Assembly: GCA_003162495.1 (NCBI GenBank)
Contig: PMOF01000061.1
Span: 1-11,956, forward strand
From: Acidobacteriaceae bacterium
GTDB taxonomy: Bacteria > Acidobacteriota > Terriglobia > Terriglobales > Acidobacteriaceae
Reading direction: 5' to 3'
DNA: 11,956 nt
Below, piece by piece: positions 4,614 through 11,956 of the stretch (positions are counted from its first letter, which is position 1; each line of letters starts with the position of its first letter). The notes under the pieces are model-generated. The model saw only the letters and a program-made list of their open reading frames with translations. It did no database searches and was not told the DNA's origin. The translations under genes and the position numbers were made by a program.

Positions 4614-4829
4614 TCACTGTTCATCCGGCGGGTAGTCGCCGGGAATCCCAAAATCTGGATTTGAGCGCTGATCTTCGGCCTCGTGGAGCTTTTTCAGGGT
4701 ATTTCGGTACCACCAGGCAGCCGCCAAGCCCCCGGCAAATGCCGACGCGGTGGCAATCAGCCCTAGCTTGATCCAGCTGGCTGACTGAGTGGCTTTGGTT
4801 TGTGAAGGGGGCAAAGGATCAGATTCCAA
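4614..4829 (-). CDS. Small single-helix membrane protein, hypothetical
   Basis: This 71-residue product belongs to no family I recognise, but it has the layout of a real small membrane protein. It has a short polar N-terminus (about 1-17), one hydrophobic helix at about residues 18-41 (ASWIKLGLIATASAFAGGL followed by AAAWWY), a positively charged edge (R42, K46, K47) and an acidic, proline-rich tail ending in PPDEQ. The charge distribution suggests the C-terminal side faces the cytoplasm. The start is TTG at 4829-4827, with AGGA (4841-4838) eight bases before it. It converges with the pterin dehydratase gene. A perfect 11-base palindrome (TATCT-T-AGATA, 4841-4851) overlaps the ribosome-binding site and might be an operator. 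No ATG is available at the start, so expression is inferred. Confidence 0.6.
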   Translation of the reverse strand: MESDPLPPSQTKATQSASWIKLGLIATASAFAGGLAAAWWYRNTLKKLHEAEDQRSNPDFGIPGDYPPDEQ

Positions 4830-4851: not shown

Positions 4852-4948
4852 TCCTTTCGTGCAGGCGGTTCCTGTTTTTTTGCCCGCACCAAGGTTGCTC
4901 GGTTAGATGCGGGGACCTCGAAAAGGATTGCAGTCCAAACCTCGCAGA

Positions 4949-4995
4949 ATAATTTCGATTTTTGTATTTGACTTCAACCCAATCTATGCTATCGT
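4949..4995 (+). promoter_or_regulatory. Sigma-70-type promoter for the putative small RNA
   Basis: A -35 box TTGACT (4968-4973) and a -10 box TATCGT (4990-4995) are separated by 16 bases. They match the consensus at 5 of 6 and 4 of 6 positions. An AT-rich tract (about 4949-4967) directly upstream resembles an UP element. The predicted transcript start is about 5002, immediately ahead of a foldable segment and a strong terminator. This arrangement supports the promoter more than its boxes alone do. Confidence 0.6.
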
Positions 4996-5001
4996 GTATA
5001 T

Positions 5002-5107
5002 ATTCCAGTGATGGAGGCGGCATCGCTTGTCTCTCCATATCTGGAAGTAAGTTGCGTCACTGGCCTCCCGGCACGAACAGCAAGACCGTTCGTGCCGCCT
5101 TTTTTTT
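5002..5107 (+). ncRNA. Candidate small structured RNA of about 105 nt
   Basis: The segment is bounded by a promoter (boxes at 4968-4995) and an intrinsic terminator (5069-5107), with no credible protein between them. It can fold: an outer 7-bp stem CCAGTGA (5005-5011) with TCACTGG (5057-5063) encloses a 5-bp stem TGGAG (5012-5016) with CTCCA (5033-5037), followed by the terminator hairpin. A GGAGG at 5013-5017 is complementary to CCTCC at 5064-5068, which allows an alternative pairing. It does not match tRNA, 5S, 6S or the SRP RNA core, although the GGAAGTAAG at about 5043 is faintly like the SRP loop. Small RNA motifs limited to Acidobacteria, such as Acido-1, have been published, but I cannot tell from memory whether this is one. 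It could instead be a premature-termination leader for the gene at 5225, but that gene has its own promoter-like boxes downstream of the terminator. Confidence 0.55.
5069..5107 (+). terminator. Strong intrinsic terminator of the putative small RNA
   Basis: A perfect 10-bp GC-rich stem, CGGCACGAAC (5069-5078) paired with GTTCGTGCCG (5088-5097), encloses a 9-base loop. Two C residues follow, then eight consecutive T residues (5100-5107). This is a textbook Rho-independent terminator on the plus strand. No protein-coding gene on that strand ends just before it, so it must end a non-coding transcript or an attenuated leader. Confidence 0.9.
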
Positions 5108-5136
5108 GCGGCCAAATCAGCGCTGCAAGATTCGCA

Positions 5137-5157
5137 TTCCCTGTTCCCTGTTCCCTG
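5137..5157. repeat. Three tandem copies of TTCCCTG
   Basis: Three perfect head-to-tail copies of a 7-base unit (5137-5143, 5144-5150, 5151-5157) lie between the small RNA terminator and the next promoter. A partial fourth copy (TTTAGTG) may follow. I recall similar heptamer repeats between genes in other acidobacterial genomes, but that is not verified here. The copy number may vary between strains. Confidence 0.85.
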
Positions 5158-5158
5158 T

Positions 5159-5188
5159 TTAGTGTTCCTTCCGGTTTGGGTCTAAAAT
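5159..5188 (+). promoter_or_regulatory. Probable promoter of the PCYCGC-like gene
   Basis: A good -10 box TAAAAT (5183-5188, 5 of 6 consensus) lies about 37 bases before the ATG at 5225. The -35 region (TTAGTG at 5159-5164, 18-base spacing) is weak, so an activator or another sigma factor is possible. Transcription would start near 5195. Confidence 0.4.
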
Positions 5189-5224: not shown

Positions 5225-5677
5225 ATGAAGAATTGGATCCAGCACCGTTGGATTCTCGGATTAGCCGTCTTCGCCATCACCGCGGCCAGCTATGCGCAGT
5301 GGTCGAACCCGGCCGCCAACGTTCCCGCTTACCACCCCTCCACTCCGCTCAAGGTCAGCGCATTGCCGCCCATCTTGTCCGGCGCGCAGCTTACGGGTGA
5401 CAACTTCCGCTATCCCTGGCAGGTGCACGCTTACCAGCAAGCGGCCAAGATCGGCAATGTGCTTTACCAGTTGCCTTGCAACTGCCGCTGCGACCGCGCC
5501 CTGGGTCACACCAGCCTGCGCAGTTGTTATGAGGGACTGCATGGAACTGAGTGCTCCACCTGCGCCAAAGAAGAGCTCTTCGCCTACCAGCAAACCAGGC
5601 TGGGCAAGACCCCCGCGCAGATTCGTGCCAGCATCGCCAATCACGAGTACGAGGCCATCGATTTGCAGCAGGAGTAA
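5225..5677 (+). CDS. Secreted PCYCGC-like cysteine-rich protein
   Basis: This 150-residue exported protein has a signal peptide at about residues 1-24: the charged start MKNWIQHR, a hydrophobic stretch LGLAVFAITAAS, and a likely cut after A24 in SYA-Q. No lipobox cysteine is seen, so it is probably periplasmic or secreted rather than a lipoprotein. The C-terminal half resembles the PCYCGC family, with P84-C85-N-C-R-C89, then GHTSLRSCYEGLHGTECSTC (94-113), six cysteines in all (85, 87, 89, 101, 110, 113), and an ending with the pattern GKTPAQIRASIANHEY. The usual PCYCGC signature is here PCNCRC. The function of the family is not known to me; the cysteines and H95 suggest metal binding or redox chemistry. 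The ATG at 5225 is preferred over the in-frame TTG at 5210 because it begins a normal signal peptide. Its ribosome-binding site is weak. It is flanked by its own promoter and terminator. Confidence 0.8.
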   Translation: MKNWIQHRWILGLAVFAITAASYAQWSNPAANVPAYHPSTPLKVSALPPILSGAQLTGDNFRYPWQVHAYQQAAKIGNVLYQLPCNCRCDRALGHTSLRSCYEGLHGTECSTCAKEELFAYQQTRLGKTPAQIRASIANHEYEAIDLQQE

Positions 5678-5751: not shown

Positions 5752-5779
5752 TTGACAGATTATCCAATACCTGTTTACT
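5752..5779 (+). promoter_or_regulatory. Promoter of the PadR-ADOP operon
   Basis: A perfect -35 box TTGACA (5752-5757) and a -10 box TTTACT (5774-5779, 4 of 6) are spaced by 16 bases. The predicted start is near 5786. That would exclude the ATG at 5782 as start codon of the PadR gene and leave the ATG at 5803. PadR proteins commonly repress their own promoter, so an operator is expected here, but I see no clean inverted repeat. Confidence 0.65.
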
Positions 5780-5802
5780 CTATGCCTGATGAGAACAAGC
5801 CT

Positions 5803-6153
5803 ATGACTGAAACTGCTTCCCGCGATCTATTTCCCGGCGCACTCGAGATGATGATCCTGGAGTCGCTTCGCCGCCAGCCAGCCCACGGATATGCGCTGGT
5901 GCAGCACATCCAGCAGCGATCGAAAAACCTGCTGCAAGTGGAAGAGGGTTCGCTTTACCCGGCGCTGCAGAGGCTGCTCAAGGCCAGGTTGGTCAAGGCC
6001 GAGTGGGGCGTCTCCTCTACCAACCGCCGTGTGCGAACCTACCAGATCACGGCTTCAGGACTTCGCCATCTGGAGCAGCAAATCTCGAGCTTTGAGCGCA
6101 TGTTCGAAGGCATTGCACTGGTCCTCGATCCGACCAAATCCCCAGCCAGTTAA
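5803..6153 (+). CDS. PadR family transcriptional regulator
   Basis: This is a one-domain winged-helix regulator of 116 residues, the usual size for the short PadR group. Typical features are DLFPGALEMMILESL (8-22), the HGYALVQHI segment (28-36) and the wing-region motif EEGSLYPALQRLL (47-59) that PadR proteins share, then RRVRTYQITASGLRHL (75-90) and a C-terminal dimerisation helix (about 89-105). Such proteins are dimeric repressors that respond to small molecules or stress. The gene ends 12 bases before the first ADOP permease and has its own promoter upstream, so it most likely regulates the permease genes as well as itself. ATG 5803 is chosen because the predicted transcript begins near 5786. 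ATG 5782 would add seven residues and the TTG at 5752 seventeen. The ligand cannot be inferred. Confidence 0.93.
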   Translation: MTETASRDLFPGALEMMILESLRRQPAHGYALVQHIQQRSKNLLQVEEGSLYPALQRLLKARLVKAEWGVSSTNRRVRTYQITASGLRHLEQQISSFERMFEGIALVLDPTKSPAS

Positions 6154-6165
6154 GAGGAGTTTCGT

Positions 6166-8802
6166 ATGAACTGGATTCCGGACATCTTCCGCCGCCGCAA
6201 AGTCTACAACGATCTCGCCGAAGAAATGCGCCTGCATATTGAAGAACACGCAATGCATTTGATGGGCCAAGGCATGAGCCGAAAAGAGGCAGAGCAAACG
6301 GCCCGCCGCGCATTCGGCAACCGAACTCTGCTGGAGGAGCGCAGTCGCGAAGTATGGCAATGGCCCACGCTGGAGTCGATCTGGGCCGATGTTCGTTACG
6401 CCGTGCGGCAATTTCGCAAATCTCCGGGGTTCACGTTCACGGTGCTTGTTTCGCTTGCGCTTGGCCTGGGCGCGAACACCACCATCTTTACGTTTGTCAA
6501 CGCACTGCTGTTTCTTCCCCCGCCGGTTAAACAGCCGAGCCGGCTGGTCGAAGTCATGCCGCGGGATGCGAAGGCCTCTGGGATCGAAAGTTTTCTTCCC
6601 CTCAGCTATCCCGGCTATTCCAACTTGCGCGACCAGAACCACACGCTTTCCGGCTTTGCCGCGTTCGATGGCGACCCAGGCCCCGTGAGCTGGCGCAACT
6701 CCGGCCAGGGCACGCTTCTGCATGGTCAGCTTGTCTCCGGCAACTTCTTTTCCGTCGCCGGTATCGAGCCGTTCCTGGGCCGCGCTTTTGCACCCGACGA
6801 AGACCGCGCCGGCGCGGCTCGCCCGGTCATTGTGGTCAGTTATTCGTTTTGGAAGCAGCAACTCGGCGCGGATCGCTCCATCATTGGCCATGCGCTGACA
6901 CTGAACGGAACCAGCTACACCATCGTGGGCGTTGCGCCTTCCAGTTTCACCGGCGTCCTTATCGGAACAAATCCCGACTTCTGGGCTCCACTGGCCATGG
7001 CGCCTGTTTTCACTCAGGATGCCCAGCGGCTCACCAATGAAAGCGGCTTCTGGCTCTTCGGGCTCGGCCGTCTCAAGCCGGAGGCTTCCAAGGCCCAGGC
7101 TCAGGCCGATCTGACGGTTTTAACCCGCGGTCTGCATCGGCCGGACGGCGACGACGTGAGAGACGCGGCCGTTTATCCGGTTGATCTGGTGCCGGGCCCA
7201 TACCGTGGATACGTGGCGGCATTTACCGGTTTGCTAATGGCGGTGGTGGCGCTGGTGCTGGTGATCGCCTGCGCCAACGCAGCCAATTTGCTTTTGGCCC
7301 GCGCTATTACTCGACGCCGTGAGCTTGCCGTCCGCAGCTCGCTCGGGGCCACGCGCTTTCGTATCGTGCGCCAGATGCTGACAGAAAGCGTGTTGCTCGC
7401 CGTTGCCGGCGGCGCCGCAGGAATCCTGCTCACCCGCTGGTCGATCCCCTTGCTGCTTAGCCTCAAGCCTGCGAACATCCCGCTCACCATCGAGGCCCCG
7501 CTCGACTGGCGCGTGTTTTCGTTCGCATTGGTGCTCTCGCTCTGCGTTGGAATTCTCTTCGGCATCGTGCCTGCCTGGCGCACGCCACGCTTTGAGCTTA
7601 TGTCCGCCTTGAAAGACGAAGCCCAGCTTGCCGGCCCGCGGCGCTCCTGGCTCCGCGACAGCATTGTGAGCCTGCAAATCGCCGTCTGCCTGGTTCTGCT
7701 CATCGGCGCCGGCCTCTGCGTCAGGAGCCTGTTCAATGCGCGCTCCATCGACCCAGGTTTCAGCACCCATAACGTGGTGCTCGCCCAACTCGATCCTGAA
7801 AGCCTGGGCTACTCCAAGCAGCAGCAGCACATCTTCTATCAACAGCTGCTCGATCGCGTTCGCGCCCTGCCCGGCATCGATTCCGTCAGCCTCACCAGCT
7901 CTCTGCCACTGGGGACCCAGCGCCTCTCGCAACCTGCAACCATCGATGGATTCACTCCCCCGCCTGGCCAGCCCGGTGTCTTTGTCCAAACCGCCTATGT
8001 TGCTCCAGGCTTCTTCTCCACCATGGGCGTCCCGATTCTCGATGGTCACGATCTTTCCTCAATCGCTCCGCATCCGGGCCTCAGCCAGGTCGTCGTCAAC
8101 GAGGCCATGGCAAAGCGATTCTGGCCGGGCAAAAATCCTGTGGGGCAGCATTTCAAGATAATGGATACTGCAATGGAAACCGTCGGTGTGGTGAAGACGG
8201 GAAAGTATCGCAGCCTCAACGAAGATCCGCAGCCCTTCATGTACCGGCCTTTTGACTACACGTCGCAGGCCTATCTGGTTGCGCACAGCCCTTCAGACGC
8301 ACAGGCTGCTCTCGACGAGATCAGCCGCGCCGTTCGCGAACTCGATCCGAATGTCGTCCCCACGGATATGGAGTCAATCAAGCAATACATGGCCCTGCCG
8401 CTCTTTGCGGCGCATACCACCGGCGTCTTGCTGGCGGCCTTTGGAGCGGTCGCCCTTCTGCTGGCAACCATCGGCCTCAGCGGCGTGGTCTCCTACTCCG
8501 TCAGCCAGCGCACCAATGAGATTGGTGTCCGCATGGCGCTCGGTGCAGACCGGCTCGACGTTGTGAGGCTGATTCTGAAACAAGGGATGCGGCTCACACT
8601 GATCGGCATCCTTTGCGGCCTTGTTCTGTCGTTCGCGGCCACTCGTGTTCTGTCCGGATTGCTTTATGGCATCAAGCCCGGCGATCCTGTCACCTTCGCC
8701 GCCGTTTCCATGTTCCTCGCTGCCGTGGCGCTTGTGTCGTGTTACCTGCCTGCTCGCCGCGCCGCCTCAGTCGATCCGATGAAGTCTCTCCGCGCTGAGT
8801 GA
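6166..8802 (+). CDS. ADOP-type permease (MacB/FtsX-like, no ATPase), copy 1
   Basis: This 878-residue inner-membrane protein has three parts. (a) A cytoplasmic prefix domain (1-80) begins MNWIPDIFRRRKVYND and contains the AFGNRTLLEERSREVWQWP segment. (b) A MacB-like unit has a first helix at about 90-116, a large periplasmic domain to about 345 (VSGNFFSVAGIEPFLGRAF around 190) and helices at about 350-372, 403-425 and 449-470. (c) A second such unit starts at about 503-525, with a periplasmic domain to about 745 and three helices to the C-terminus. FtsX signatures appear twice, as RRRELAVRSSLGATRFRIVR and RTNEIGVRMALGAD, and the end DPMKSLRAE is typical. MacB itself is half this size and works with an ATPase, but none is encoded here; ADOP proteins are called orphan for that reason and their substrate is unknown to me. 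AGGAG (6155-6159) lies six bases before the ATG. Confidence 0.93.
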   Translation: MNWIPDIFRRRKVYNDLAEEMRLHIEEHAMHLMGQGMSRKEAEQTARRAFGNRTLLEERSREVWQWPTLESIWADVRYAVRQFRKSPGFTFTVLVSLALGLGANTTIFTFVNALLFLPPPVKQPSRLVEVMPRDAKASGIESFLPLSYPGYSNLRDQNHTLSGFAAFDGDPGPVSWRNSGQGTLLHGQLVSGNFFSVAGIEPFLGRAFAPDEDRAGAARPVIVVSYSFWKQQLGADRSIIGHALTLNGTSYTIVGVAPSSFTGVLIGTNPDFWAPLAMAPVFTQDAQRLTNESGFWLFGLGRLKPEASKAQAQADLTVLTRGLHRPDGDDVRDAAVYPVDLVPGPYRGYVAAFTGLLMAVVALVLVIACANAANLLLARAITRRRELAVRSSLGATRFRIVRQMLTESVLLAVAGGAAGILLTRWSIPLLLSLKPANIPLTIEAPLDWRVFSFALVLSLCVGILFGIVPAWRTPRFELMSALKDEAQLAGPRRSWLRDSIVSLQIAVCLVLLIGAGLCVRSLFNARSIDPGFSTHNVVLAQLDPESLGYSKQQQHIFYQQLLDRVRALPGIDSVSLTSSLPLGTQRLSQPATIDGFTPPPGQPGVFVQTAYVAPGFFSTMGVPILDGHDLSSIAPHPGLSQVVVNEAMAKRFWPGKNPVGQHFKIMDTAMETVGVVKTGKYRSLNEDPQPFMYRPFDYTSQAYLVAHSPSDAQAALDEISRAVRELDPNVVPTDMESIKQYMALPLFAAHTTGVLLAAFGAVALLLATIGLSGVVSYSVSQRTNEIGVRMALGADRLDVVRLILKQGMRLTLIGILCGLVLSFAATRVLSGLLYGIKPGDPVTFAAVSMFLAAVALVSCYLPARRAASVDPMKSLRAE

Positions 8803-8861
8803 GGATTTTTTAGACTTAAGAAGTTCGTTTAGATTAACCAGGAAACTGCGAGGTGTCTGGC
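8803..8861 (+). other. Short spacer between the two ADOP genes
   Basis: Fifty-nine bases follow the first permease stop. A run of T residues (8807-8813) occurs, but there is no GC-rich hairpin before it, so it is not a terminator by itself. GAGG (8850-8853) serves as ribosome-binding site for the second permease. I see no strong promoter, so read-through from the first permease is likely. Confidence 0.5.
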
Positions 8862-11495
8862 ATGAATTGGTTACCAGGAATCTTTCGCCGCCGCAAGGTT
8901 TACAACGATCTCGCCGAAGAAATGCGCCTGCATATTGAAGAACGCGCGGAGCAATTGATCGGCGAAGGCATGAGCTGGAATGAGGCCGAGCAAGCAGCCC
9001 GCCGCGCCTTCGGCAACCGAACGCTGCTGGAGGAGCGCAGCCGCGAAGTGTGGCAGTGGCCTACGCTCGAATCAATCTGGGACGATGTGCGATTCGCCCT
9101 GCGCCAGTTGCGCCGTTCACCCGGATTTGCAACCGCCGCCGTCGTGACCATGGCCTTGGCCATCGGCGCAAATAGCGTCGTGTTCAGCGTAATGAACGGG
9201 CTGATTCTGCGGCCTCTCCAAGTCCCCCACGAGGAGAGTCTTTATGCCATTGAGCGCGGTAGCGACAAGGACGCGAGCCAATCGTATCCCGACTATCTGG
9301 ATCTGCGCCTCCGCAATCGCAGCTTCGAGGATCTGGTCGCATACAGCATTCCGCAGGTAGGGCTCGATACCGGCAAAGGTCCAATCGCTACCTGGGGTGT
9401 CGAGGCAACCGGGAATTACTTCGATGCGTTGGGCATTTACCCCCTTTTGGGCCGTTTCTTCCACAGTTCCGATGAACACGGGCCGAATAGCGCTCCCTGG
9501 ATTGTGCTCAGCTACGCTTACTGGCACACCCAGTTTCTCGACGATAAAAGCGTTGTGGGCCGCACCGTCCAGGTGAACAAGCATCAGTTCACCATTGTCG
9601 GCGTGGCGCCGCCTGACTTCCGCGGCACCCTGGTGTTTTACTCGCCCAACTTTTTCGTTCCGCTGGTCGACAAAGAGGAAGTGGAAGGCGCCACAGACCT
9701 GTCCGATCGCGGAAGCCGCGGGCTCTTGCAAGTCATCGGACACCTCAAGCCGGGAGTCTCACCTGCACAGGCCATCGCCGATTTGAACTCGATCGGCTCC
9801 TGGCTCGAAAAAGCTTATCCGAAAGAGGAACGCGAACCCGGCTTTGCCGTGGGCCAGCCAAGGCTCCTCGGCGATCAGTTTTCCGGTCCCTTCCAGGCAT
9901 TCATTGCCGGCCTAATGCTGCTGTCGGGGTTGATTCTGCTGGCGGCATGCGCCAACCTAGGCAGCCTGTTTGCCGCGCGCGCCTCGGATCGATCCCGCGA
10001 GTTGGCCCTGCGCCTGGCGCTCGGATCGAGCCGGAATCGTATCTTGCGCGGCTTGTTGACGGAGGCCGTGCTTATTTCTTTCGTCGGCGGCGCTGCGGGA
10101 CTTGCGGCGAGTGTAACGTTGTTGCGCTGGCTGAGCACGTGGCAGCCCTTCGGTAATTTCCCCGTCCAAACGCCGGTCAACCCCGATGCCACCGTGATTG
10201 GAGTTGCGTTGTTGCTCACTCTTCTCAGCGGATGCCTGTTTGGATCAGTCCCGGTCGGGCAGGTTCTCCGCACCAGTCCTTACGAGATCGTGAAGGCTGG
10301 TTCCATAGCCAGAGCGGGAAGGCGGCTCTCCGCCCGGGACGTGCTGCTCGTTCTGCAAATTTCTATTTGCGCCGTGCTGGTTACCTCATCCCTAGTCGCT
10401 GTGCGCGGACTCATCCGCGCGCTGCACGCCAATTTCGGTTTCGAACCGCGCAACTCAATCCTGGTGAGCGCCGATCTGCACATGGCGGGCTACACCAGCG
10501 GCGACCGGGTGCCCGTCATGCAGAGAAAGTTCCTCGACGCCGTGGAAGCAATCCCCGGCGTGGAGTCGGCCGGATGGACCGATCCGCTGCTTCTCAACGA
10601 CACCAACTCCGCAAATCTTTTTACCGACGACACGGAAGACCTCAGAGCCTCTCATGCCGTGGCCTCACCGTATGTATTCCACATCTCGGCCGCGTATCTT
10701 CAGGCAGAGGGAACAGTCCTGCTTGCGGGGAGGACTTTCACTCGCCATGACGATCAAAACTCGCCCCGCGTGGCCGTCGTCAATCAGGAGTTTGCGCGTA
10801 AAATTTTCGGCTCGGTGACCGTTGCTTTGGGCCGGAAATTCAAAATGCCCGACGGAACCCGCGTTGAAATCGTGGGCATTTCAGAAGACGGAAAATACAA
10901 CACGCTCACAGAAAGTCCGCACGCGGCTCTCTTTCTTCCCCTCCTGCAATGGCCCACCAACACCACATGGATGGTGGTGCGCTCGAGCCGCGATCCGCAG
11001 CAACTCGGGGCAGACATCAGGCGCGCCCTGCTCCAGGTCGACCCCGGGCTGCCGGTCGAGGTCGAAAATCGCCACGACGAAATGGTCACCTCCCTGTTCG
11101 GCCCGAAGATAGCCACGATTGCGCTCGGTGTTCTCGGCGTCATGGGCGCAATGCTGTCGATCACAGGCATTTTTGGCATGGCAGCGTACTCGGTCAGCAA
11201 GCGGCTGCGAGAGCTGGGCATTCGCATGGCCCTCGGCGCGCAGCGCAGAGAGGTGTTGCAGGCAGCATTGGGACGTCCCTTGAAGTTACTGGCTTTTGGT
11301 TCGGCGGCGGGACTTCTGCTCGGAATTTTGGCAACGCGGGTGCTTGCTTACATTGTGTACCAGGCCACTCCCCGCGATCCGCTGGTATTGGCCGGTGTTG
11401 TTCTGGCGATGTTGCTTCTGGGGCTGGTTGCCACTTGGATTCCAGCCCAGCGTGCACTTTCGGTCAACCCTCTGATCTTGCTTCGCGAGGACTGA
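8862..11495 (+). CDS. ADOP-type permease (MacB/FtsX-like, no ATPase), copy 2
   Basis: This 877-residue paralogue of the preceding gene has the same order: prefix domain 1-80, helix at about 88-116, periplasmic MacB-like domain to about 343, three helices (about 347-368, 395-420, 443-465), then a second unit starting at about 493-515, a second periplasmic domain to about 745, and helices at about 750-775, 808-832 and 839-862. FtsX signatures are RSRELALRLALGSSRNRILR and KRLRELGIRMALGAQ, with the ending VNPLILLRED. The prefix is almost the same as in copy 1, whereas the periplasmic domains are clearly different, so the two probably bind different partners or substrates. The ATG at 8862 is preferred to the GTG at 8853 because it lines up with the start of copy 1 and has GAGG eight bases upstream. 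It is probably co-transcribed with the PadR gene and copy 1. Confidence 0.93.
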   Translation: MNWLPGIFRRRKVYNDLAEEMRLHIEERAEQLIGEGMSWNEAEQAARRAFGNRTLLEERSREVWQWPTLESIWDDVRFALRQLRRSPGFATAAVVTMALAIGANSVVFSVMNGLILRPLQVPHEESLYAIERGSDKDASQSYPDYLDLRLRNRSFEDLVAYSIPQVGLDTGKGPIATWGVEATGNYFDALGIYPLLGRFFHSSDEHGPNSAPWIVLSYAYWHTQFLDDKSVVGRTVQVNKHQFTIVGVAPPDFRGTLVFYSPNFFVPLVDKEEVEGATDLSDRGSRGLLQVIGHLKPGVSPAQAIADLNSIGSWLEKAYPKEEREPGFAVGQPRLLGDQFSGPFQAFIAGLMLLSGLILLAACANLGSLFAARASDRSRELALRLALGSSRNRILRGLLTEAVLISFVGGAAGLAASVTLLRWLSTWQPFGNFPVQTPVNPDATVIGVALLLTLLSGCLFGSVPVGQVLRTSPYEIVKAGSIARAGRRLSARDVLLVLQISICAVLVTSSLVAVRGLIRALHANFGFEPRNSILVSADLHMAGYTSGDRVPVMQRKFLDAVEAIPGVESAGWTDPLLLNDTNSANLFTDDTEDLRASHAVASPYVFHISAAYLQAEGTVLLAGRTFTRHDDQNSPRVAVVNQEFARKIFGSVTVALGRKFKMPDGTRVEIVGISEDGKYNTLTESPHAALFLPLLQWPTNTTWMVVRSSRDPQQLGADIRRALLQVDPGLPVEVENRHDEMVTSLFGPKIATIALGVLGVMGAMLSITGIFGMAAYSVSKRLRELGIRMALGAQRREVLQAALGRPLKLLAFGSAAGLLLGILATRVLAYIVYQATPRDPLVLAGVVLAMLLLGLVATWIPAQRALSVNPLILLRED

Positions 11496-11610: not shown

Positions 11611-11956
11611 GGGGGCGTCACGGTTTCGACGGGATCGATTGCGGCTTAGGAGGCATGTCAGGGTGTGGGCACCTGTGATCGCCTGCAAAACAAAAGTTGC
11701 CAACGATAATCTGGCACTTGCAGCTTAATTAAATAAGCTGCCGTCTTCCACGGCTTCGCCTATGGGCTGTGAGCGGACGTCATTCAGTAGGCTGGCGGTT
11801 GCGGCTCGGTCCGTGTTGCACCCGTAAGATCATCGGACTAGTTCACGGCGCATCTTGTCCGTTCTGAGTGCCGGGGATGAAACCAAAGGAATCGGACAAA
11901 GCATGAACTCTCCTGGCTGACAGCGATTTCGGACGCGGGTTCGACTCCCGCCGCCT
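11611..11956 (+). ncRNA. ssrA: Transfer-messenger RNA (tmRNA), 3' end just outside the window
   Basis: tmRNA rescues ribosomes stalled on broken messages: it enters as an alanyl-tRNA and then supplies a short frame that adds a degradation tag. The 5' end GGGGGCG (11611-11617) pairs with CGCCT(CC) at the 3' end, of which CGCCT (11952-11956) is visible. The T arm is GCGGG (11935-11939), loop TTCGACT, and CCCGC (11947-11951). GTTTCGACGGG follows the 5' end, as is standard. The tag frame runs from the resume codon GCC at 11699 to TAA at 11726-11728 and reads ANDNLALAA, ending LAA as expected for ClpXP recognition. A hairpin around the stop codon (CAGCTT 11721-11726 with AAGCTG 11735-11740) matches helix 5. 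This is the one-piece form. Only the last two acceptor bases, the discriminator and the CCA are missing. Confidence 0.97.
11699..11728 (+). other. ssrA: tmRNA proteolysis-tag reading frame
   Basis: The frame inside tmRNA has nine codons, GCC to GCT, then TAA. It encodes ANDNLALAA. Together with the alanine carried by tmRNA the full tag would be A-ANDNLALAA. It compares well with the E. coli tag ANDENYALAA and is one residue shorter. Confidence 0.95.

Follow-up and report, generated by a model that had tools for sequence, protein, structure and literature searches.

In enterobacteria, the sigma54-controlled sRNA GlmY relieves another sRNA, GlmZ, by mimicry toward the protein RapZ, without base pairing between the two RNAs. 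Mutual binding of two sRNAs was described in Campylobacter jejuni, where CjNC140 and CjNC110 interact through CU-rich and GA-rich segments and where CjNC110 was suggested by the authors to be possibly under sigma54 (PMC10470494). In Salmonella, the antagonistic sRNAs InvS and PinT meet through their seed regions in a decoy mechanism, InvS being a 3' end-derived, PhoP-induced RNA (PMC12721325). CJnc230 (FlmE) and CJnc170 (FlmR), also from C. jejuni, are opposing sRNAs of which one is RpoN-dependent; CJnc230 is processed from the flgE mRNA, and direct CJnc230-CJnc170 pairing is not described in the portions of the source consulted (PMC11187230). As described in the parts of these three articles drawn on here, sRNA-sRNA antagonism is already known, and the kind of system addressed below is therefore a known one.

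Among Acidobacteria, the noncoding RNA motifs Acido-1 (RF01686) and Acido-Lenti-1 (RF01687) were reported (PMC2864571), and the table of a 2022 review gives four distinct annotated sRNAs for Acidobacteriota (PMC9029176), according to the sections of both sources used. Among the matches listed in a literature search on Acidobacteria sRNAs, none concerned by title the sRNAs of Acidobacteriaceae.

This article describes a predicted pair of RNAs from this family, termed RNA-A and RNA-B (A and B). RNA-A was recognized in the window, a stretch of 11,956 nucleotides that corresponds to contig C298 of an Acidobacteriaceae genome of 2.8 Mb (71% complete). A is probably a trans-acting antisense sRNA with an anti-Shine-Dalgarno stretch, and B a sigma54-controlled decoy that titrates it. 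The fuller reading, to which about even credence is given, is that of an Acidobacteriaceae two-RNA circuit in which an anti-Shine-Dalgarno sRNA is opposed by a dedicated, unlinked and sigma54-gated decoy that imitates a ribosome-binding site and offers one or two binding sites, so that the activator would relieve an entire group of mRNAs of repression simultaneously. Conservation, covariation, co-occurrence and complementarity are seen directly in the sequences, and transcription, pairing in the cell and the direction of control are inferred. Sequence alone predicts in this case a conserved sRNA, its partner, and the sigma factor and activator sites of that partner.

With GlmY/GlmZ the pair would share relief under sigma54 control, achieved by RNA pairing instead of mimicry toward a protein. 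Compared by description with the parts of the report on CjNC140/CjNC110, it is similar as a predicted pair of mutually binding sRNAs with possible sigma54 control; it belongs to a different phylum, its complement reaches 13-14 nt in the best cases and is kept over about two dozen genera, and it shows two sites in most B loci as well as a -24/-12 element with tandem upstream dyads (PMC10470494). InvS/PinT resembles the proposed pair as an antagonistic pair meeting through seed regions in a decoy mechanism, RNA-B having instead a sigma54-type promoter of its own by prediction (PMC12721325), and CJnc230/CJnc170 as opposing sRNAs under partial RpoN control, unlike A and B in the processing of CJnc230 from an mRNA (PMC11187230). 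Within the literature searched, the A/B pair appears to be undescribed, and its phylogenetic depth and sigma54 gating appear to be new.

RNA-A and its conserved core

The initial annotation had proposed a stand-alone small RNA, a view that is now strongly supported by a promoter block conserved in the genus, a core and a terminator conserved in the family, covarying hairpins and independence from the gene at 5225 (Table 1). The RNA-A gene extends in the window over 4962-5107, including promoter, 5' hairpin, core and terminator, and, as judged from its conservation, is a real small-RNA gene of Acidobacteriaceae: it has a predicted promoter of its own and an intrinsic terminator, without a conserved ORF.

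Table 1. Features of the RNA-A locus and its neighbors in the window
Feature	Position	Strand	Basis or remark
RNA-A promoter (AT-rich tract, -35, -10)	4950..4995	+	Consensus scan and aligned upstream DNA of 29 genus relatives
RNA-A transcript (predicted), about 106-111 nt	4997..5107	+	Covariance-model match 5002-5106; predicted 5' end 4997-5002
RNA-A 5' hairpin TTCCAG...CTGGAA, variable inner stem and loop	5003..5046	+	Covariation, arm-permutation test
RNA-A core AAGTTGCGTCACTGGCCTCCC	5049..5069	+	Near-invariance; complementarity to RNA-B
RNA-A intrinsic terminator, 10-bp stem and T8	5069..5107	+	Covariation
Small membrane-like ORF	4614..4829	-	ORF list; context only, divergent neighbor of RNA-A
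PCYCGC-motif protein	5225..5677	+	PF13798, E 3.2e-6; context only, downstream neighbor

The promoter elements that had been annotated (TTGACT at 4968-4973, a 16-nt spacer and TATCGT at 4990-4995, below an AT-rich tract) are present, are accompanied by an upstream TG and match the consensus at 9 of 12 positions, one such promoter being found where 0.3 would be expected. The alignment contains an alternative pair, TTGTAT (4962-4967) and TATGCT (4985-4990) with a spacer of 17, and by conservation this may be the -35/-10 of RNA-A rather than TTGACT/TATCGT. The perfect 10-bp terminator hairpin (5069-5078/5088-5097) followed by T8 at 5100-5107 was also found as annotated; its loop has 9 nt, and it is absent from the list of the consensus scan, whose loop limit was 8.

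Of 200 shuffles, 199 fold less well than positions 4990-5110 (z -3.3). Alignment A1 comprises 29 genus relatives, L029 having been excluded because it is cut by a contig end; L280, L282, L284 and L302 were left out of A3, and additionally L270, L271, L274, L275, L277 and L285 out of A4; A5 comprises 52 of 82 A sequences. The conserved arms of the 5' hairpin (TTCCAG, 5003-5008; CTGGAA, 5041-5046) are complemented by an inner stem; over the 29 sequences the ends TTCC/GGAA are conserved (GGGA in two), inner stem and loop are variable and the linker is almost invariant. Taking 5' hairpin and terminator together, 6 of 18 pairs show changes on both sides in the 29 relatives, a number reached by none of 500 shuffles, and 97.3% of the cells are paired. 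On average, an arm of the hairpin pairs more stably with its own counterpart than with a permuted one (-12.0 against -9.6 kcal/mol; 0 of 2000 permutations as good), with the caveat that the own arm is not the best in every species and that the arm of the window is outdone by 19 of 28 foreign arms. For the terminator, double changes were found in 8 of 10 pairs over 52 sequences, with 99.2% of the cells paired and none of 500 shuffles as high.

Of the stems examined in relatives, the 5' hairpin and the terminator covary and the outer stem of the initial annotation does not. The fold with a 7-bp outer and a 5-bp inner stem was not confirmed: CCAGTGA (5005-5011) and TCACTGG (5057-5063) can pair, with no double changes over the 29 relatives and one pair broken in 15 of them. 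Nor does covariation in these relatives lend support to a switch between two folds within the molecule. An alternative conformer of RNA-A may form through CCRGT/ACTGG, because these 5 bp are still pairable in 27-29 of the 29 relatives per pair (one gap). GGAGG (5013-5017) and CCTCC (5064-5068), which had been read as a Shine-Dalgarno sequence and its antisense, are both present. What holds of this antisense idea is that the anti-Shine-Dalgarno stretch has a conserved complement; the complement is located in a second RNA, RNA-B, and not in the GGAGG of the same molecule, which is part of the 5' arm of the 5' hairpin.

The nearly invariant part of the core, TTGCGTCACTGGCCTCCC (5052-5069), is almost unchanged over the 52 aligned A sequences, and TTGCGTCACTGGC(C/A)TCC occurs in all 82 copies compared, the A variant being one CATCC, in genome G154. 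TTGCG is preceded by three variable bases, which are AAG in 55 and AGT in 22 of the 82 copies, AGT being usual in the genus of the window. The core is predicted to be moderately unpaired (mean 0.54 over 82 sequences), with 0.75-0.86 at its CTCC end. Positions 5056-5069 are perfectly complementary to site 2 of RNA-B and about 5052-5064 to its site 1. The TTGCG end (AAGTTGCG outside the genus) is also conserved in genomes whose B is devoid of site 1 (e.g., G061, G070, G087 and G124); B alone is therefore insufficient to explain it, and its conservation suggests that A has additional partners, for which mRNAs would be the simplest candidates. In 42 genomes no further near-perfect partner was detected for the 5' half of the core, with 30 non-self matches against 79 for the reversed control; the 20 of these sites that were fetched lie mostly inside ORFs.

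With 4940-5115 as query, BLAST detected a clear RNA-A homolog at E<=4.4e-15 in 30 of the 36 genus genomes, including that of the window, where it is single-copy; the six genomes without a match are 73-91% complete. In the order, the covariance model R1 matched 93 of 150 genomes, which represent 12 of 42 genera; in the family it matched 51 of 150 genomes, one match each. Of these 51, 50 (from 24 genera) pass the cut-off used for A (E<=1e-4), and the remaining one, at E 0.009, was left out of the count. RNA-A copies from other genera differ in the 5' part and the promoter; the core, the downstream terminator and, in most cases, the upstream hairpin stay. Among 250 genomes of the class, an exact copy of the core 17-mer was found in 46, all among the 58 drawn from the family, and the remaining 192, outside the family, contain only ten 17-mer matches with one mismatch. 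In a scan of named genomes the core 20-mer was present in at least 119 loci, and in all 119 listed a hairpin and a T run lie behind the core; none of them has the B 13-mer nearby, within the 2.4-8 kb fetched around each. The matches listed come from Edaphobacter, Granulicella, Terriglobus, Silvibacterium, Acidipila and Bryocella, in addition to MAGs, and include two odd labels (Rhodanobacteraceae and Verrucomicrobia) that may represent misbinned loci. The named genera are cultivable, and sRNA-sRNA control becomes testable in Acidobacteriota, a phylum widespread in soil. The viral contigs provided one core match, without a terminator behind it, and no match to the B pattern.

The proposed comparison with Rfam covariance models gave no family at E<=1 for the RNA-A region, Acido-1 and Acido-Lenti-1 included, and RNA-A was not assigned to Acido-1; a genome search with Acido-1 had no match anywhere, controls included, and adds nothing. 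An identity with 6S RNA (RF00013) was rejected: the window has no match, and 27 of 60 relatives have a 6S match at E<=0.001, which in G004 and G011, for example, is located elsewhere in the genome, separate from RNA-A. ORFs across RNA-A are unlikely to be genes because the length of the hairpin part varies by non-multiples of three among the 29 relatives.

RNA-B, a complementary element at an unlinked locus

In the genus of the window, the total number of near-complements of the core is no higher than that of the reversed pattern, and 7 of 16 non-self matches keep CACTGGCCTCC, against an expectation of about 11%. Across 150 family genomes the exact 13-mer GGAGGCCAGTGAC, a complement of the core, has 94 matches, distributed over 59 genomes and in roughly half of the cases belonging to RNA-A itself, compared with 18 for the reversed pattern. 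Once fetched, the second 13-mer sites were found in most cases to lie in an intergenic element, RNA-B. In 35 of 48 B loci a same-strand mutM, called by similarity to the formamidopyrimidine-DNA glycosylase (MutM/Fpg; Pfam) of L293, lies upstream, its end being 228-502 nt away; it is absent from 13 of the 48 within the 1.0-2.0 kb of upstream DNA examined. The RNA-B of the window's genome (L266) is located behind mutM, on the minus strand of contig C203 (56-68). The 13-mer sites at the 3' ends of XRE-regulator genes in L248 and L254 have no sigma54 site and were left out of B, and the B of G376, with a promoter score of 8/11, is not among the 48 loci. In L254 and L248, GGAGGCCAGTGAC stands near position 2000 just behind the XRE-like regulator gene, in or near a short inverted repeat. 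At the B site of the 13 loci scanned, no Rfam family reached its cut-off, Acido-1 and Acido-Lenti-1 included. Weak, sub-threshold isrD and Thr-leader matches overlap the B site of L290 on the other strand, and L305 has a copy of Acido-Lenti-1 elsewhere, away from the B site.

The -24/-12 consensus of sigma54 promoters is GG-N10-GC. An element of this form, resembling TGGCAC-N5-TTGCW, was found in 26 of 26 and then in 48 of 48 RNA-B loci, 96-228 nt upstream of the B site, counted from the predicted start. Its best match covers 7-11 of 11 positions (at least 9 in 42 of the 48), with a mean of 9.2 against 4.8 in shuffles for 26 loci; 13-mer sites other than RNA-B score at most 7, and the site in the window's genome is the weakest among the B loci (7/11). 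Transcription of RNA-B is predicted to start from this sigma54-type promoter. Two dyads of one motif are located 66-69 and 97-100 nt above the element, in a stricter form in 24 of 48 loci (0.17 in shuffles) and in a looser form in 32 (2.6 in shuffles); since the motif had been formulated with these very sequences in view, the clustering of the positions is better evidence than these counts. The dyads look like sigma54 activator sites, an assignment that is putative. In many loci, L312 and L329 among them, such dyads stand in tandem upstream of RNA-B at a distance of about 31 bp, with TATGGATTTATGGA and TTCCAGATTCTGAA as examples. The terminator of RNA-B covaries, with double changes in 5 of 9 pairs.

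Site 2 of RNA-B, GGGAGGCCAGUGAC, is complementary to the core over up to 14 bp. Its 13-mer is exact in 25 of the 48 loci and differs at one or two positions in 23, some of the changes being compatible with wobble pairing (GAC to GAT) and some not (GTG to GCG). The duplex with the consensus core has a mean of -30.1 kcal/mol (range -33.8 to -23.8). Site 1, GCCAGNGAYG, stands directly after the predicted start and represents a second complement of the core, its motif being found in 36 of 48 loci against 1.9% expected by shuffling. In 26 loci, its pairing with the core averages -20.7 kcal/mol, compared with -14.7 for shuffles and -14.8 for the reversed core, 6 of the 26 segments being no better than shuffles. 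Site 1 played no part in finding B and is therefore an independent sign of A-B pairing. In the window's species the predicted values are -32.2 kcal/mol for site 2 and -26.7 for site 1, and the joint fold of A and B is about 32 kcal/mol more favorable than the two separate ones. The CATCC of the A core in G154 faces GGAGG in B, a mismatch without compensation. As a transcript that is by prediction separately promoted and complementary to the conserved core of A, RNA-B is a candidate sponge or decoy.

When the two models were applied to the same 150 family genomes, A was detected in 50 and B in 45, both in 42, A only in 8, B only in 3 and neither in 97 (Fisher's test, p 2e-25 or less, relatedness being ignored). 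The B model, R2, was built from loci in genomes with A and applied to all 150; its cut-off (E<=3e-6) was placed at the observed gap between 2.9e-6 and 2.3e-4, and at E<=0.05 it matches 112 genomes, with many weak or partial matches. In G117, G404, G119 and G148 a B with a sigma54 element is present yet was scored weakly or missed by R2, which brings the genomes with both to 46; B was recognized by pattern in G375, for a total of 47 of the 50 genomes with A. A without detectable B is found in G105 (98% complete), G393 (70%) and G433 (71%). Conversely, B occurs in 3 of the 100 genomes without A, all three incomplete (77-84%). In the nine genomes measured that have A and B on one contig, the distance between them ranges from 88 kb to 2.1 Mb. 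The contigs of G416 seem to come from two organisms, because its A (100 bits) and one of its two B loci resemble the genus of the window.

Proposed mechanism, candidate targets and alternative readings

RNA-A would be made from a sigma70-type promoter and act in trans, with the core, located between 5' hairpin and terminator and bearing CCUCC, the complement of the Shine-Dalgarno sequence, as its pairing surface. RNA-B, an unlinked transcript of ~200 nt with a sigma54 promoter and two upstream activator sites, would present one or two complements of the core (sites 2 and 1) as a decoy. Upon firing of the sigma54 activator, B would pair with A over up to 14 bp and thereby remove it from its mRNA targets. 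Pairing in the cell might depend on Hfq, for which matches were found in 58 of 60 relatives. Most genomes of the genus (G000 and relatives) have three matches to the Hfq model: a canonical one at E about 1e-28 and two diverged ones, putative Hfq paralogs, with E between about 1e-10 and 1e-5.

Seven 13-mer sites fetched from genomes with A belong neither to A nor to B: four overlap ORFs (L268, L272, L276, L300) and three are in leaders of CarboxypepD_reg/outer-membrane transporter-like genes, two of them in the same genus (L304, L351) and one in another (L281). In L304 and L351 the 13-mer lies inside the stretch from Shine-Dalgarno sequence to ATG (GGGAGGCCAGTGACA-ATG), and in L281 about 100 nt upstream of the start of the longest ORF. 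The Shine-Dalgarno sequence and spacer of these Oar-like transporter genes (L304:2001-2017, L351:1001-1017) are a perfect complement to 13-14 nt of the A core. A general targeting of transporters is unsupported because, in a sample of 42 loci with 580 genes, the 14 that are transporter-like show no excess complementarity (-18.1 against -19.4 kcal/mol); starts in this comparison were those of the longest ORF, and 4 of the 14 genes come from Granulicella tundricola plasmids, where the A status was unchecked. The three leaders are a lead for putative RNA-A targets.

The co-conservation and complementarity of A and B are symmetrical, a second site is present in B in 36 of 48 loci, and other parts of the B sequence are partly conserved; all this would also suit reversed roles, with B as a sigma54-induced regulator with mRNA targets of its own and A as a constitutive sponge that sets the threshold for B. 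The core of A is, however, far more constrained than the body of B, the retention of TTGCG in the absence of site 1 speaks for other partners of A, and it is A that holds the anti-Shine-Dalgarno stretch, so that such a reversal is considered unlikely. Less probable still is a toggle in which A and B regulate only each other, the long duplex being cut by RNase III and A having no mRNA seed function. Apart from B, no systematic near-perfect complement of A was found, which, like the cofolding gain given above, would agree with such a toggle, but it leaves the TTGCG of genomes without site 1 unexplained, and a pair of RNAs without downstream targets has no evident use. The near-invariance of the core over the 52 aligned sequences could also be that of a protein-binding or processing site, the complementarity of B being a by-product of a shared recognition sequence; this is very improbable, as B contains the reverse complement and not the same sequence, at an unlinked and separately promoted locus in 47 of the 50 A genomes. 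That RNA-A is only the 5' leader or attenuator of the PCYCGC gene, an option raised by the initial annotation, is hardly credible: in the window, the gene follows the terminator on the same strand after 118 nt, but a conserved terminator precedes it, and synteny, with the gene downstream of RNA-A in only 9 of 19 loci examined, already contradicts this reading.

Surroundings of the RNA-A locus

RNA-A is located between the divergent small ORF and the gene of the PCYCGC-motif protein. The divergent ORF had no match in a Pfam search; similar ORFs form a family at this place in 7 of 19 RNA-A loci, the one of the window standing outside that family. A short CCCTGTT-type tandem repeat (5140-5161) separates the RNA-A terminator from the 5225 gene. 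Further downstream, at 5752-11495, the ORF list contains a small ORF resembling a PadR-type regulator and, behind it, two large permease-like ORFs similar to each other (6166-8802 and 8853-11495), which we take to be of the acidobacterial ADOP type. A tmRNA gene at 11611-11956 (RF00023, 158 bits) reaches the end of the contig and is overlapped by two weaker permuted-tmRNA matches.
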